Shown here piece by piece: positions 26,657-33,476 of a stretch of 55,699 bases of DNA. The stretch covers positions 1 to 55,699 of the forward strand of contig JAGWMP010000002.1 in NCBI GenBank assembly GCA_028871705.1, read 5' to 3'. Source of the DNA: Gammaproteobacteria bacterium. GTDB lineage: Bacteria; Pseudomonadota; Gammaproteobacteria; Steroidobacterales; Steroidobacteraceae. Both the position numbers and the translations under genes were made by a program. The notes below the pieces were generated by a model. The model was given only the letters and a program-made list of their open reading frames with translations, was not told the DNA's origin and made no database searches. Every line of letters starts with the position of its first letter. The stretch's first letter is position 1.

Positions 26657-29600
26657 ATGCAGGCAATGGAAACGTTAAGCCAATCGGAAACGGCAAGCGC
26701 GCGGGCGCCGGGCTGGCAGTTCTGGATCGATCGCGGCGGCACCTTCACCGACGTGGTCGCCCTCGCACCCGACGGTGCGCTGCACATCCGCAAGGTGCTG
26801 TCGGCGCCCGCCGGCAGCGGCGCTGACGCCGATCCGGGCCTCGCCGCCGCGCGCGAGCTGCGCGCCGCGTTGGACCCCGGGGCGCCGGTCGTGGAAGTGA
26901 AGGTCGGGACCACCGTGGCAACCAACGCGCTGCTGACGCGCGGTGGCGAGCCGGTGGTGCTCCTCACCACCGCCGGCTTCGCCGATGCGCTGCGCGTCGG
27001 CTACCAGAACCGCCCCGACATCTTCGCGCGCCGCATCGTGCTGCCGCAGCCGCTCTATACCGCGGTCATCGAGGCCGAGGAACGCATCGACGCCGACGGG
27101 CGCGTGCTCGTGCCGCTCGCCCTCGAGCGGCTGCGGGCGGACCTCACGCGCGCGCGGCGCGCCGGACGGCGCGCGCTCGCCATCGTGTTCATGCACGGCT
27201 GGCGCCACGGCGCGCATGAGCGCGCCGCCGCGGCCCTCGCCCGCGAGCTCGGCTTCGAGGAAGTCTCGGTGTCGCACGAGCTCTCGCCGCTGGTGCGCTA
27301 CGTGACGCGCGGCGACACCACGGTGCTCAACGCCTACCTGGCGCTGCCGCTGCGCGTCTACGTCGGGGGCCTCAGGGCGCAGCTCGCCGCGCTCGACAGC
27401 GGCGCGCGTCTCGCCTTCATGCAGAGCAACGGCGGCTTGGCGGACGCGGCCGCGTTCCACGCCCTCGCGAGCGTGCTGTCGGGGCCGGCGGGCGGACTGA
27501 TCGGCATGCACTGGGTGGGCGAGCGCGTGGGTACGCCGAAGCTCATCGGCTTCGACATGGGCGGCACCTCGACCGACGTCTCGCTCATCGACGGTGCGCT
27601 GCCGCAGCGATTCGAGCACACCATCGCCGGGGTGCGCCTCACGCAGCCGATGCTCGACGTGCACACCATCGCCGCCGGCGGCGGCTCCATCCTGAGCTAC
27701 CGCGACGGGCGCTTCGCGGTGGGTCCGGCCTCGGCGGGCGCGGCTCCGGGACCGGCGTGCTACCGGCGCGGCGGGCCGCTCACGCTCACCGACGTGCAGG
27801 TGCTGCTCGGGCACCTGCGCCCCGACACCCTGCCGGCGCTGTTCGGCAACGACGGCCGCGCGCGCATCGACGCCGAGGTGGTCGCGGACAGGTTCGCGGC
27901 GCTCGCGGCCGAGGTGAGCGCGCGGGTGGCGCACGGCTGCTCGGCGGAGCTCGTGGCGGAGTCGTTCCTCGAGGTCGGCGTCGAGTCGATGGCCAATGCC
28001 ATCCGCCAGGTGTCGGCGCGCCAGGGGCTCGATGCCGGCGACTTCACGCTGTTCTGCTTCGGCGGGGCGGCCGGCCAGCACGCCTGCCGCGTGGCGCAGG
28101 CCGCCGGGATGCGCCGGGTGCTGGTGCATCCGCTCGCGAGCGTGCTGTCGGCATTCGGCATCGGCGTGGCGGACCGCCTGGCAGTGCGCCGCGCGAGTCT
28201 GCGGGCGCCGCTCACCGCGGCCGGCCTCGGGGAGGCGCGCCTCGAGCTCGAGCGCCTCGAGGCGCGCGCGCGCGCCGAGCTCGCCGCGTTCGCCGCGGCG
28301 CCCGAACGGGTGCGGGTGGCATGGCTGCTCGAGGTGCGCGCCGGCGACAGCGAAGTGACGCTCTCGGTGGCCTATGGCGCGCTCGGGGAGGTGCGCGAGC
28401 GCTTCCACGCCGAGCACCTGAAGCGCTTCGGCTTCGCCGCCCACAGCCTCGAGGCGGTGATCGAGGCGGTGCGCGCCGAGGCGCGCCTCACTTCGCTCGA
28501 CGGCGCAAGGCTGACAATCCCCGCGCCGGCGGTGCCGGCGGCCCTGCCGCCGACCGCGCGCGCCTGGTTCGCGGGCTGGCGCGAGGTGCCGCTCGTCTCG
28601 ATGGCGACTCTGGAGGAGACGCTTGCGGGACCTGCGCTCATCGTCGAGCCGCACAGCACCGTGGTGCTCGAGAGCGGCTGGCAGGCGCGCCGCCTCGAGG
28701 GCGGGGAGCTCCTGCTCGAGAGCCAGGCAGCCGCCGGCGGCGGCGGCGAGCACGCCGCCGATCCGGCGCGCATCGAGATCTCCAACAATCTCTTCATGCA
28801 CATCGCCGAGCAGATGGGCGAGGTGCTCAAAGCCACCGCCCAGTCGGTGAACATCCGCGAGCGCCTCGACTACTCCTGCGCGCTGTTCGACGCGCAGGGG
28901 GGCCTGGTCGCCAACGCGCCGCACATGCCGGTGCACCTGGGGTCGATGGGCGCGAGCGTGCGCGCGGTCATCGAGGCGCGGCGCGGGCAGCTGCGGCCCG
29001 GGGACTCCTGGCTCCTCAACAGTCCCTACCACGGCGGCACCCATCTGCCCGACATGACCGTGGTCACGCCGGTCTTCAGCGGCGGCGGCGCTGCGCCCGA
29101 CTTCTTCGTCGCCTCGCGCGCCCACCACGCCGACATCGGCGGGGTGACGCCGGGCTCAATGCCGCCCTTCAGCCGCGACATAGAAGAGGAAGGGGCGCTG
29201 TTCGAGTGTTTCCACATGGTGGAGGACTCGCGGCTGAGGGAGCGGGAGCTGCGCGCCGCGCTCGCCGCCGGACGCTGGCCGGCGCGCCGCCCCGCGCAGA
29301 ACCTCGCGGATCTGCGCGCGCAGCTCGCCGCCAACGCGCGCGGCATCGCCGAGATCGGCCGCGCGCTCGAGCGCTACGGGCTCGCCGGCCTCAGCGCCCG
29401 CATGCGCGAGGTGCAGGACAACGCCGCGCTCGCGGTGCGCGAGTGCCTCGGTGCGTGCTCGAGCGGCGAGTTCCGCTACGAGATGGACGGCGGCTTCTGC
29501 GTCGCGGTGCGCATCGACATCGACCGCGACGCGCGCCGCGCGCGCATCGATTTCACCGGCTCCTCGCCCCAGGGCCCGCACAACTTCAACGCCCCGCGCG

Positions 29601-30292
29601 CCGTGTGCGTGGCGGCGGTGCTGTACGTGTTCCGCACGCTGATCGAGCGGCCGATTCCGCTCAATGAGGGTTGCCTCGAGCCGCTCGAGATCGTCATCCC
29701 GCCGGGCTCGATGCTCGATCCGCGGCCGCCGGCGGCGGTGGCCGCCGGCAACGTCGAGACCTCGCAGTGCATCGTGGACGCGCTCTACGGCGCGCTCGGT
29801 ATCCTCGCCGCCTCCCAGGGAACGATGAACAACCTCACCTTCGGGGACGAGCGGCTGCAGTACTACGAGACGATCTGCGGCGGCGCCGGGGCGGGGCCGG
29901 ATTTCGACGGCTGCGATGCGGTGCACACGCACATGACCAACTCGCGCCTCACCGATCCGGAGATCCTCGAGGCGCAGTACCCGGTACTGGTGCGCGAGTT
30001 CGCGATCCGCCGCGGCTCGGGCGGCGCCGGCCGCCACCACGGCGGCGACGGCGTGGTGCGCAGGCTCGAGTTCCGTGCGCCCTTCACGGGCGCACTGCTC
30101 GCCAATCACCGGCGCATCGCGCCCTTCGGGCTCGCGGGGGGAGCGCCGGGGGCGTGCGGCGCGGCCCACATCCGCCGTGCGGCGGGCGGCGCGCTCGAAA
30201 CCCTCGGCGCCACGGCCCGTTTCGAGGTGGCGCCGGGGGACGAGCTCACGATCCTCACCCCGGGCGGGGGCGGCTTCGGCAAGAGTGACTAG
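26657..30292 (+). CDS. 5-oxoprolinase/hydantoinase, fused HyuA-HyuB type
   Basis: FWIDRGGTFTDVVALAPDG, GFDMGGTSTDVSLID; C-terminal HyuB LNSPYHGGTHLPDMTVVTPV; 1211 aa. Confidence 0.93.
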   Translation: MQAMETLSQSETASARAPGWQFWIDRGGTFTDVVALAPDGALHIRKVLSAPAGSGADADPGLAAARELRAALDPGAPVVEVKVGTTVATNALLTRGGEPVVLLTTAGFADALRVGYQNRPDIFARRIVLPQPLYTAVIEAEERIDADGRVLVPLALERLRADLTRARRAGRRALAIVFMHGWRHGAHERAAAALARELGFEEVSVSHELSPLVRYVTRGDTTVLNAYLALPLRVYVGGLRAQLAALDSGARLAFMQSNGGLADAAAFHALASVLSGPAGGLIGMHWVGERVGTPKLIGFDMGGTSTDVSLIDGALPQRFEHTIAGVRLTQPMLDVHTIAAGGGSILSYRDGRFAVGPASAGAAPGPACYRRGGPLTLTDVQVLLGHLRPDTLPALFGNDGRARIDAEVVADRFAALAAEVSARVAHGCSAELVAESFLEVGVESMANAIRQVSARQGLDAGDFTLFCFGGAAGQHACRVAQAAGMRRVLVHPLASVLSAFGIGVADRLAVRRASLRAPLTAAGLGEARLELERLEARARAELAAFAAAPERVRVAWLLEVRAGDSEVTLSVAYGALGEVRERFHAEHLKRFGFAAHSLEAVIEAVRAEARLTSLDGARLTIPAPAVPAALPPTARAWFAGWREVPLVSMATLEETLAGPALIVEPHSTVVLESGWQARRLEGGELLLESQAAAGGGGEHAADPARIEISNNLFMHIAEQMGEVLKATAQSVNIRERLDYSCALFDAQGGLVANAPHMPVHLGSMGASVRAVIEARRGQLRPGDSWLLNSPYHGGTHLPDMTVVTPVFSGGGAAPDFFVASRAHHADIGGVTPGSMPPFSRDIEEEGALFECFHMVEDSRLRERELRAALAAGRWPARRPAQNLADLRAQLAANARGIAEIGRALERYGLAGLSARMREVQDNAALAVRECLGACSSGEFRYEMDGGFCVAVRIDIDRDARRARIDFTGSSPQGPHNFNAPRAVCVAAVLYVFRTLIERPIPLNEGCLEPLEIVIPPGSMLDPRPPAAVAAGNVETSQCIVDALYGALGILAASQGTMNNLTFGDERLQYYETICGGAGAGPDFDGCDAVHTHMTNSRLTDPEILEAQYPVLVREFAIRRGSGGAGRHHGGDGVVRRLEFRAPFTGALLANHRRIAPFGLAGGAPGACGAAHIRRAAGGALETLGATARFEVAPGDELTILTPGGGGFGKSD

Positions 30293-31923
30293 CCAGGCGA
30301 GCCAACGACTCCACCGCGCAGGATCGAGGTCTGGATCTCCCACTCGACGCGCTGCCCCGCGGTCGCCTGGCGGTTCACCGACACGGGACGCACGCGGCTC
30401 ACGCCCGCGCGGTGCGTCACGAGCCAGGTGTCGAACTCACCGGGGCGCGTGGTGGCGAAACCGAACAGCAGGTTGAACTTGCCCTCGGCAACGCTCTGGG
30501 CGCCGTTGACGCGTTCGTCGCAGATCACGAAGTGACTGTCGCGCGGCGTCACGCCGGCGAAGGCGCCCTGCGCGGCGAGTGAGTCGAGGAACTCCGAGAC
30601 GCGCGCGCGCGCGCGCGCCCAGGTCGCCGGGCCGTTGTGCTCGAGCAGCACCCAGCGGGTGCCCTGCTCGATGCTCGCGGCGACGTAGAGCCCGAGCCGC
30701 CGCGCGCAAAGGTAGCGCCAGTCCGAGGCGCTGCTGCCATCCCCGGCGAGCGTGCGTGGACCCGGATTGGTGCGGCCGGCGCTGCGTACCGCCTGCAGGG
30801 TGTTGACCCCCTGCTGCGCGAGGCGCGCGCGCTCGGCGTCCGACACCGTCACCGCCGGCCGCAGCCCCGGGCGCAGCGACGCCTCCTCGGCCTCCACCGC
30901 CGTCCAGATGGGCCAGCTCTCGTCCGAGCGCGCGATCATTCCGGCGGCCGCCCCGCAGGATGCGAAGGTTTCGACCCGGCCGCGCAGGCGGTCGAAGGCC
31001 TGGACGCGCGGGTAGTACATCACCGCGCAGTCGCTGCGGAACGGCCAGCTGCGCAGCGCCGCGAGCGCCACCGCGGCGCTGCTCCAGGATGCGGGCGGAT
31101 CGACCACCAGCAGCGCGCAGCGCTCGCGGCACAGGCGCGCCGCCACGTAGAGCGTCGACATGCCGACGTCCTGCTCGCGTGCCAGCGGCGGAATGCACAG
31201 CAGGTTGAAGCGCTCGGCGGCGGCGAGCGCGAACAGGCCCGTGCCGCGGGCGTGCGAGCCGATCACGTCGTAGTCGGTGAGCGGTGCGCCGTCATCGCCG
31301 TCGGGATTGGAGAGCGTGTAGCCGGCCGCGACGCCGCCGGGCCCGCCGGCGGAGCGATCCGGACGCTGCGCCGGAAGCGTGCCGTGCACGCGTACCAGGG
31401 CCGATTCGAGCAGTGCCTGGGTGAGAAAGCCCTTCGCGCCGGCCGTCATGGACACGCGCCGGTAGATCTCCTGATCCTCGACGAGCTCCGAGCCCGCGGT
31501 GCGCACGCGCTGCACCACGAGATTGAAACGATCGGCGTCGGCCGCCGAGAGCCCGTCATAGTCGACCGAGGCGCGCAGGTACTCACGCGAGCCCGGGTTG
31601 ACCGCGATCAGCGTGAGGATCTCGCCCGCCGCCGGGAGGCTGAGCGTCGGCGGCCGCGCGCCGTTGACCACGCGGACGATGCGCGCTTCGCGCCCGCCGT
31701 TCTCGAAGAACTGCTCGACGGCGTAGGACAGCGTCGCGGGCTGCCACAGGCCGCCGAAGTGCTGCTGGAACTCGGAGAAGCTGCGGACGGTGAGCGGCTG
31801 TGCGACCGGGCCCTTGAGCGTGCGCCCGACGAAAGCGGCGACCCCGGTGGCGACGCCGTCGATGGCCTGATAGTCACGGCTTTGTTGGGCGAGTTGTGCG
31901 CCGGACACGCGGCTGTTGGCCAC
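30289..31923 (-). CDS. Contractile tail sheath-like protein (phage/eCIS sheath family), orphan
   Basis: N-term AIDGVATGVAAFVGRTLKGPVAQPLTVRSFSEFQQHFGG; C-term RRLGLYVAASIEQGTRWVLLEHNGPATWARARARVSEFLDSLAAQGAFAGVTPRDSHFVICDER...GKFNLLFGFATTRPGEFDTW. Confidence 0.85.
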   Translation of the reverse strand: MANSRVSGAQLAQQSRDYQAIDGVATGVAAFVGRTLKGPVAQPLTVRSFSEFQQHFGGLWQPATLSYAVEQFFENGGREARIVRVVNGARPPTLSLPAAGEILTLIAVNPGSREYLRASVDYDGLSAADADRFNLVVQRVRTAGSELVEDQEIYRRVSMTAGAKGFLTQALLESALVRVHGTLPAQRPDRSAGGPGGVAAGYTLSNPDGDDGAPLTDYDVIGSHARGTGLFALAAAERFNLLCIPPLAREQDVGMSTLYVAARLCRERCALLVVDPPASWSSAAVALAALRSWPFRSDCAVMYYPRVQAFDRLRGRVETFASCGAAAGMIARSDESWPIWTAVEAEEASLRPGLRPAVTVSDAERARLAQQGVNTLQAVRSAGRTNPGPRTLAGDGSSASDWRYLCARRLGLYVAASIEQGTRWVLLEHNGPATWARARARVSEFLDSLAAQGAFAGVTPRDSHFVICDERVNGAQSVAEGKFNLLFGFATTRPGEFDTWLVTHRAGVSRVRPVSVNRQATAGQRVEWEIQTSILRGGVVGSPG

Positions 31924-31966
31924 TCAAACGCCTCTTGGAGTTGTATCTGGGGACTCTAGCACAGGG

Positions 31967-32013: not shown

Positions 32014-32199
32014 TTAAGTGCCGTCGCCCGTGTGCGGCGCGGCATCGCGCTCGAGCGCGCGCTGGGCCTCCTCGAGGCGGGCACGCTCGCGTGCCTCGCG
32101 CTTGGCGGCAATCTCCGCCAGCATGAGCTCGAGCCACTGCGATAACGCCGGGGCAGGCGCGTCCTGCCGCGATAGCGGCGGCGTCGGGGAATCGCTCAT
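32014..32199 (-). CDS. Small charged/amphipathic protein (61 aa), unknown
   Basis: MSDSPTPPLSRQDAPAPALSQWLELMLAEIAAKREARERARLEEAQRALERDAAPHTGDGT; ATG shares a base with the upstream TGA (TGATG). Confidence 0.6.
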   Translation of the reverse strand: MSDSPTPPLSRQDAPAPALSQWLELMLAEIAAKREARERARLEEAQRALERDAAPHTGDGT

Positions 32200-33476
32200 C
32201 AGCCGCCGCCGTCCTTCGTAGGGGGCGGCGTCTTGCCGGGCGGTGCAGCCGCGGCAGGTGCGGGGACAGCCGCGGCGGGTGCCGCGGCGCCCGTGGTGGG
32301 CGCAGGAGCCTGTGCACCGGGCTCGATCTCCGAGAGGATCTGCTTGAAGGACGCCTCGTCCATCGGCAGGTCGGACTTGCCGTCCCAGCTCGAGCCCGCG
32401 GGCAGCGCGTTCTGCACCCGCGGCGCGCGGGCGAGCACCTGCTCGAGACTCGCGTCCGGGGTCGAGATCGGCACCGGCACGCCGCGCGGATTCCTGGTGA
32501 GCGAGGCCACCAGGGCCCAGTCGATCTGCAGGTGATGGCTCTTGAGCTGCTGCTGCAGCGTCGCGGCGAGCTCCTTGCTGAGGAGCTTGCGCTGCGCCTT
32601 GTTCCAGTCGCGCGCATCGTCCTCGAGCACGTCGTAGGGCTGCAGGTACAGCTGCCCGTCGGTCCAGCCGAACTCGAACGGCTGGTTCACCACGCGCACC
32701 TGCGTGCCGACCGGCACCATGTTGAAGAACTGCTCGATGTCCTCGGGATAGAGGCGAATGCAGCCGTGACTCGAGCGCAGGCCGACGCCGGCCGGCTTGT
32801 TGGTGCCGTGGATCAGGTAGCTCGGCCACTGCAGATAGAACGCGTACTTGCCGAGCGGATTGTCGGGGCCCGGTCCGATCACCGGGTCGAGATCCTCGCC
32901 GTTGTCGTGATGCTCCTTGCGCACCGACACCGGCACGCGCCAGGTCGGATCCTTCTGGCGGCGCACGATCCGGGTGACGCCCTCGGGCGTGCGCCAGCCC
33001 ACCTTGCCGATGCCGATGGGATGGGTGATTACGACGGTGCGTTCCCCGGCCTTGACCGGCGGGAAGTAAAAGATCCGCATCGCGGGGATGTTGATCACCA
33101 GGCCCGTGTAGGGGGCGTTCGGCAGCACGAACTGACTCGGTACGACGATCTCGGTGCCCTCGCCCGGCAGCCACGGGTCCACCTTCGGGTTGGCGCGCAG
33201 GATCTCCTCGTAGCCGACGTTGAAGCGGCGCGCGATGTCGGTGAGCGTGTCGTCCTTGCCCGCGGCCACCACCTGCACGACGCCGACCACGCTCTGCCCT
33301 GGCTCGAGCTCGAAGCGTTCCGTGACCGCCGGCTGCGGCAGCGCCGGAGGCGCCGGTGCCGCCGGCGGGGGCGGCGGCGGGGCCTTGCGATGCAGGGGGC
33401 CGAACAGCGAGCAGGCGGCGAGCAGGCAGCAGCCCGCGAGCGCCACGGCCGCTGCGCGCAGCGGAACGGTATTCAT
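32199..33476 (-). CDS. L,D-transpeptidase (YkuD) lipoprotein with LysM-like region
   Basis: Lipobox LLAAC; DIARRFNVGYEEILRANPKVDPWLPGEGTEIVVP; YLIHGTNKPAGVGLRSSHGCIRLYPEDI. Confidence 0.93.
   Translation of the reverse strand: MNTVPLRAAAVALAGCCLLAACSLFGPLHRKAPPPPPPAAPAPPALPQPAVTERFELEPGQSVVGVVQVVAAGKDDTLTDIARRFNVGYEEILRANPKVDPWLPGEGTEIVVPSQFVLPNAPYTGLVINIPAMRIFYFPPVKAGERTVVITHPIGIGKVGWRTPEGVTRIVRRQKDPTWRVPVSVRKEHHDNGEDLDPVIGPGPDNPLGKYAFYLQWPSYLIHGTNKPAGVGLRSSHGCIRLYPEDIEQFFNMVPVGTQVRVVNQPFEFGWTDGQLYLQPYDVLEDDARDWNKAQRKLLSKELAATLQQQLKSHHLQIDWALVASLTRNPRGVPVPISTPDASLEQVLARAPRVQNALPAGSSWDGKSDLPMDEASFKQILSEIEPGAQAPAPTTGAAAPAAAVPAPAAAAPPGKTPPPTKDGGG

Follow-up and report, generated by a model that had tools for sequence, protein, structure and literature searches.

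Contractile sheath proteins are known from phage tails, tailocins, the T6SS and CIS. The closest described counterpart of the gene reported here, hereafter the orphan sheath, is the eCIS sheath (Cis2) of gammaproteobacteria, rhizobia and Streptomyces, which is homologous to it over the full length, has the same predicted fold and adjoins it in the tree. Unlike Cis2, however, the orphan comes without tube, cap, baseplate or spike, the residues of its N-arm, linker and tube-facing side are relaxed or lost, its C-terminal tail is longer, and it is inherited vertically as one copy. Of the solved structures, the CIS sheaths of Halogeometricum borinquense and Streptomyces coelicolor (PDB entries 9ezm, 8bky and 8bl4) are the closest by sequence and among the closest by fold. 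Both belong to complete injection systems, in which they form contractile polymers (PMC11566945; PMC10066040), whereas the orphan has no tube to surround. Among the myophage tail sheaths (T4 gp18, Mu gp39 and P1), the core fold is shared for T4 and P1, but the best phage records are only 25–27% identical over about a third of the protein, and no phage genes are found nearby. More distant still, TssB and TssC of the T6SS have the core of the sheath fold in common with it (PMC9230969), although the T6SS sheath is made of two proteins.

The window, that is, the whole stretch of DNA analysed (55,699 nucleotides), comes from a MAG that is 84% complete. The sheath gene ends in a stop that overlaps the last bases of the convergent hydantoinase gene, by 4 bp (Table 1). 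The preliminary description had read the 544-aa product as a sheath-type protein, and this was borne out. The ORF matched PHROG 23 ("tail sheath") with E=1e-40 over residues 1–497, and the three PDB sheaths named above matched the protein by sequence with E=3e-37 to 7e-36. The Pfam sheath models proposed for checking the assignment did give matches, but with scores under the gathering cut-offs (24.9 bits against 26.9, and 19.9 against 31.4), so that automated annotation may miss the gene. The AlphaFold2 model, built from a 52-sequence alignment, reached a pLDDT of 87 and a pTM of 0.87, and the best 50 Foldseek matches listed for it in the PDB were all contractile-sheath or phage-tail entries, with 9ezm at the top (E=5e-31). 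By sequence, profile and predicted fold, the window ORF is a genuine contractile-sheath homologue, and its sequence and structural homology to the contractile sheath protein superfamily extends over the core domains.

Table 1. Positions in the window of the orphan sheath gene, the regions of its product, its upstream elements and its flanking genes
Feature	Position	Strand	Remarks
Orphan sheath-family gene	30289..31923	minus	544 aa, GTG start
Residues 1–20, eroded N-terminal arm	31864..31923	minus	eCIS relatives carry YPGVYIEEVPSG here
Residues 99–228, outer domain	31240..31629	minus	Part with the highest conservation in orphans and the lowest in eCIS sheaths
Residues 346–398, region of the eCIS domain-I beta-hairpin	30730..30888	minus	Relaxed in orphans, poorly ordered in the window model
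Residues 432–451, long domain-I helix	30571..30630	minus	Invariant eCIS Arg at 451 lost
Residues 498–544, C-arm strand, then orphan-specific C-terminal extension	30292..30432	minus	
RBS-like AAGAGG	31931..31936	minus	Conserved in near relatives
Extended -10-like promoter element (putative) TGCTAGAGT	31953..31961	minus	38 nt before the start; conservation strong among near relatives
61-aa ORF	32014-32199	minus	Overlaps the L,D-transpeptidase stop; motif (L/M)S(E/Q)WLxxMLxEIxxKxE
LysM + YkuD L,D-transpeptidase	32199..33476	minus	Lies upstream on the same strand in much of the order; positional context rather than a proven partner
5-oxoprolinase/hydantoinase A-B fusion	26657..30292	plus	Convergent with the sheath gene in many families of the order; positional context rather than a proven partner

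The gene had been described as having no injection-system neighbours, and the loci compared agree with this. The window neighbours checked are ordinary (oxoprolinase/hydantoinase, L,D-transpeptidase, two TPM proteins, LemA, GreA/B, an enzyme of the saccharopine-dehydrogenase family and a GST), and in 20 further regions read from other genera and families no CIS genes were found beside the orphan, the surroundings being ordinary chromosomal ones. Relatives of the window sheath, 38–85% identical and with an intact ORF, are encoded in 25 public-genome loci, most of which keep the gene order L,D-transpeptidase, small ORF, sheath and convergent hydantoinase. The proposed orphan setting, devoid of CIS genes, recurs in the loci of relatives across families. 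Phage structural, lysis and integrase neighbours were absent from the families read, and the nearest relatives are not phage-like, matches to phage sheaths being weak. Several of the relatives of the window sheath come from records labelled Steroidobacteraceae. An orphan-clade sheath that groups with family f6 was also found next to an M23-like peptidase in a record labelled Rhodospirillales (L025:9908-11464), a label that may be wrong.

No conserved partner gene of the orphan sheath was found among the neighbours compared. The L,D-transpeptidase and the hydantoinase were rejected as functional partners because unrelated genes intervene in several families and the locus labelled Rhodospirillales has the M23-like peptidase instead. 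For example, aminopeptidase-like, rhomboid-like and glycosyltransferase-like genes separate the sheath from the L,D-transpeptidase in several of the further regions. The conserved positions of these two genes look like ancestral synteny.

Matches to the orphan were detected in 189 of the 246 genomes of the window's order, which comprises bacteria of soil and water, all but two of them (G008 and G016) better than 1e-57. The 187 genomes with such strong matches (E < 1e-57) belong to 11 of the 16 families (f1–f8, f10, f11 and f15). The gene is nearly always present as one copy per genome in this search, and its ORF is intact in nearly all carriers throughout the 11 families. Many of the genomes listed without the orphan are small, 1.3–2.7 Mb (e.g., family f13 and genus g6), and there is a hint that the gene is dispensable in streamlined lineages. 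When the search was extended to the class (323 genomes), matches of comparable strength outside the order were seen only in G285, G311, G314, G427, G506, G515 and G542. In the loci around six of these seven genomes (L059–L064) a tube gene follows the sheath, and G506 has a tube match on the short contig that carries its sheath. Other CIS sheaths in the class matched more weakly, from 1e-12 to 1e-36.

Components of a complete machine were sought in 80 genomes, 74 from the order (72 of them orphan carriers) and six with a sister eCIS, using the profiles PF06841, PF04965, PF14065 and PF04717 for tube, baseplate, cap and spike; absence here means the result of a profile search. In the window's own genome these searches found no tube, gp25, Pvc16 cap or spike gene. 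Nor was a second sheath found there with a protein query, which is the better test, as the profile PF04984 detected no second sheath but also missed that of the window. The tube search works, since a tube was detected in all six eCIS-bearing genomes. Among the 72 carriers, a tube was present only in G006 and G215, gp25 and Phage_base_V each in four (G006, G079, G209 and G215, with a further gp25 match under the cut-off in G009), and the Pvc16 cap in one (G006). None of the tube, gp25, Pvc16 and Phage_base_V was found in the single-contig carriers G048, G221, G029, G065, G070 and G088. The matches in G079, G209 and G215 resemble genes of a T6SS or a phage, and in G006 an eCIS with its own sheaths is located on C12, unlinked to the orphan on C34 (loci L073 and L075). 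With regard to the T6SS, the two components covered, the TssE-like gp25 and the VgrG-like Phage_base_V, are absent from the window's own genome and from most carriers.

These results bear on borrowing of a tube and baseplate from an unlinked locus, raised in the preliminary description, and on the wider possibility that the gene encodes the sheath of a cryptic or unlinked contractile machine whose tube and baseplate genes lie elsewhere or have diverged beyond recognition. The sheath fold, the eCIS on another contig in G006 and the tube gene in G215 speak for it, but 70 of the 72 carriers lack a tube, including the six single-contig genomes, and the cap, gp25 and spike are missing from nearly all of them. 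Moreover, the eCIS of G006 has sheaths of its own, and the residues on the tube side are precisely the relaxed ones. Borrowing from an unlinked locus is thus rejected, and a cryptic or unlinked machine is extremely unlikely. A stand-alone domesticated sheath, the other proposal made at the outset, is strongly supported by the order-wide spread, the genome-wide lack of tube and baseplate, the single clade and the purifying selection described below.

The origin of the gene was addressed with a maximum-likelihood tree (LG+C20+F+G4) including 30 orphans, a representative set of the 187 carriers. All 30 fall into a single clade (100/100) with a stem length of 0.56, which is long; the eCIS sheaths adjoin this clade and the other CIS sheaths lie outside. 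The clade survives the addition of eCIS sheaths from Rhizobium, Ensifer, Streptomyces and IMG/VR, which mix with the sister group. Inside the orphan clade the families of the order cluster together, which fits vertical descent, and one domestication before the radiation of the order is the simplest reading. The nearest gammaproteobacterial eCIS sheaths are 33–39% identical to that of the window. A viral origin was rejected, as the IMG/VR sheaths of L082–L084 are eCIS-like and 38–39% identical, and neither that of L082 nor that of L083 belongs to the orphan clade. The sheath of L082 is followed by a tube-like gene, with small filamentous-phage-like genes on the opposite strand; L082–L084 could represent integrated filamentous phages next to an eCIS. 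One of the class genomes with a strong match (G314, locus L059) carries a complete eCIS with tube, T4_baseplate, Pvc16 cap, AAA ATPase, CIS_tube, spike and gp25. Its sheath and those of its relatives L060–L064, from other gammaproteobacterial families, count among the working sheaths most closely related to the orphan. L059 also holds a 1044-aa gene with a start that appears DUF4157-like by eye.

The orphan sheath is under purifying selection (dN/dS 0.05–0.2). Pairwise values were 0.186 for the window and L022, 0.156 for the window and L023, 0.147 for L022 and L023, and 0.055 for L011 and L014, similar to those of neighbouring genes. Just upstream of the sheath start, close relatives carry the AAGAGG element and the extended -10-like TGTG(C/T)TAGAGTC, which would function as part of a promoter, and the gene appears to be transcribed from one of its own. 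A decaying eCIS or prophage relic without present function might be suspected from the conserved residues lost from the N-arm and domain I and from the small-genome lineages that lack the gene. However, the dN/dS resembles that of adjacent genes, the ORFs are intact in nearly all carriers of the 11 families, the promoter-like element is conserved, and in the outer domain conservation exceeds that of working eCIS sheaths. This reading is refuted by selection and distribution, and we give it practically no credence; the pseudogene decay in relatives that would have spoken against the initial proposal was not seen, the ORFs being intact at 38–85% identity.

In assembled sheaths, subunits are joined by "handshakes", four-stranded sheets made of the N-arm, C-arm and domain I (PMC11915804; PMC8894135), and a longer N-linker blocks contraction (PMC5797969; PMC10066040). 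The handshake elements (N-arm PGVYxEE, linker IxGVxTS and C-arm KPAEF) are lost or relaxed in the window clade, with remnants only in some deep orphans. Together with the missing tube, gp25, Phage_base_V and Pvc16, this leaves the window gene without these attributes of a working eCIS or CIS sheath. Constraint was compared as mean column identity in representative sequence sets. It was lower in orphans than in eCIS sheaths for the N-arm (0.20 against 0.56), the linker (0.27 against 0.68), residues 346–398 (0.26 against 0.50) and residues 399–505, the C-terminal part of domain I (about 0.3 against 0.6), although poorer alignment there could account for part of the relaxation of domain I. The opposite was observed for the outer residues 99–180 (0.46 in orphans, 0.32 in eCIS sheaths) and 181–228 (0.39 and 0.26). 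The contrast was significant (Mann-Whitney p=8e-31), with only 1 of 474 circular shifts giving a value as low; as a control, it was absent when two eCIS subsets were compared and much weaker for two subsets of orphans. The alignments thus show an inverted pattern, in which the N-arm, hinge linker, tube-side domain and C-arm are relaxed and the outer domains conserved.

The eCIS-conserved positions lost in orphans comprise the PGVYxEE arm, the GVxTS linker, the 337–344 motif, 369–387, E415, R451, 472–477 and the C-arm. Conversely, the conserved residues specific to orphans include V120, Y122, Q138, R139, D150, Q151, D219 and S223, all eight of which are in the outer domain. In the sister eCIS model the domain-I beta-hairpin is formed by strands 389–395 and 399–403 and would be the handshake acceptor of this domain; helix 432–451 is probably the equivalent of the tube-attachment helix. 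The tail after F497 measures 26–83 aa in orphans and 12–14 in eCIS sheaths, with no overlap, and in the window model it contains an extra strand (508–514) and a low-confidence helix. N-arm confidence was low in the AlphaFold monomer models of both the orphan and the eCIS sheath, so the models do not show a functional loss of the arm. In deeper orphans, such as those of L049, L050 and L051, the arm still reads PGILVEE or PGIFVEE, and some members may still exchange strands.

Since relaxation or loss has affected the N-arm motif, the hinge linker, the hairpin region of domain I and the residues of the C-arm, a canonical sheath polymer is unlikely for the orphan. The same erosion in the window clade weighs against a domesticated filament, as which the protein would form polysheath-like hollow tubes or rings in the cytoplasm, with a scaffolding role in the cytoskeleton or in storage. 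Self-assembly in the absence of a tube does occur among phage sheaths, T4 and phiKZ providing examples (PMC6357053; PMC6088184), but the R-type diffocin sheath CD1363 stays unassembled, and self-assembly is therefore not universal among sheaths (PMC6088184). The full sheath fold is retained in the predicted model, some deep orphans keep the N-arm motif, and the C-terminal extension could make a new interface; even so, we regard a filament as rather unlikely.

Erosion of the parts that weave subunits together also disfavours an anti-phage or anti-CIS decoy that co-assembles with the sheaths of incoming myophages or rivals and poisons them. A decoy would require no partner gene, and altered T6SS sheath subunits co-assemble with the wild type and block its function (PMC5797969). 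Against this, typical defence genes look different from a single-copy, vertically descending gene whose chromosomal neighbourhood is conserved, matches to phage sheaths are weak (25–27% identity over about 36% of the protein), and PADLOC, with its curated defence models, returned no match for either the sheath or the L,D-transpeptidase. Such a role is very improbable.

We think it likely, instead, that the orphan is a domesticated eCIS sheath, now working in the cytoplasm without a tube or contraction, by way of its former outer face. The order would descend from a bearer of the eCIS type that other gammaproteobacterial families have today; of that system only the sheath would have survived, to be reused. 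The present product would be a cytoplasmic protein (no signal peptide was seen by eye), either a monomer or a small non-canonical assembly that does not contract. As predicted by the model, the sheath fold is kept, and the C-terminal extension may fold back as the extra strand and cap the edge used elsewhere for subunit exchange. The former outer face would bind a partner, as a scaffold or binding protein, and the putative patch of Y122, Q138, R139 and Q151 on neighbouring strands of the predicted model is the best candidate binding site.

Probably, then, a sheath has become a near-core chromosomal gene of a bacterial order, with its outer domain converted to a module for binding or scaffolding and with polymerisation abandoned or rebuilt. 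If true, this near-core reading adds a further fate of sheaths to injection machines and phage tails, and a sheath of such age and order-wide occurrence, kept by purifying selection without its tube, would clearly exemplify the reuse of a single nanomachine part. The reversed constraint pattern also offers a direct test of what a sheath can do without a tube. Because it scores under the curated Pfam cut-offs, the orphan may have gone unnoticed in automated annotation, and likewise in CIS surveys that take complete loci as their starting point; the open-licence PMC papers searched, outside which most subscription literature lies, contained no earlier description of such a gene.

The small ORF between the sheath and the L,D-transpeptidase was also considered. 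Its product, 61 aa and coiled-coil-like, gave no Pfam match above the cut-off. It was rejected as a partner of the sheath, as it follows the L,D-transpeptidase even where no sheath is adjacent (L041, L045 and L046), and it therefore goes with the L,D-transpeptidase. Its motif was observed downstream of 28 of the 37 L,D-transpeptidase genes scanned, including cases with no adjacent sheath, and the ORF is possibly an unannotated small partner of that enzyme.
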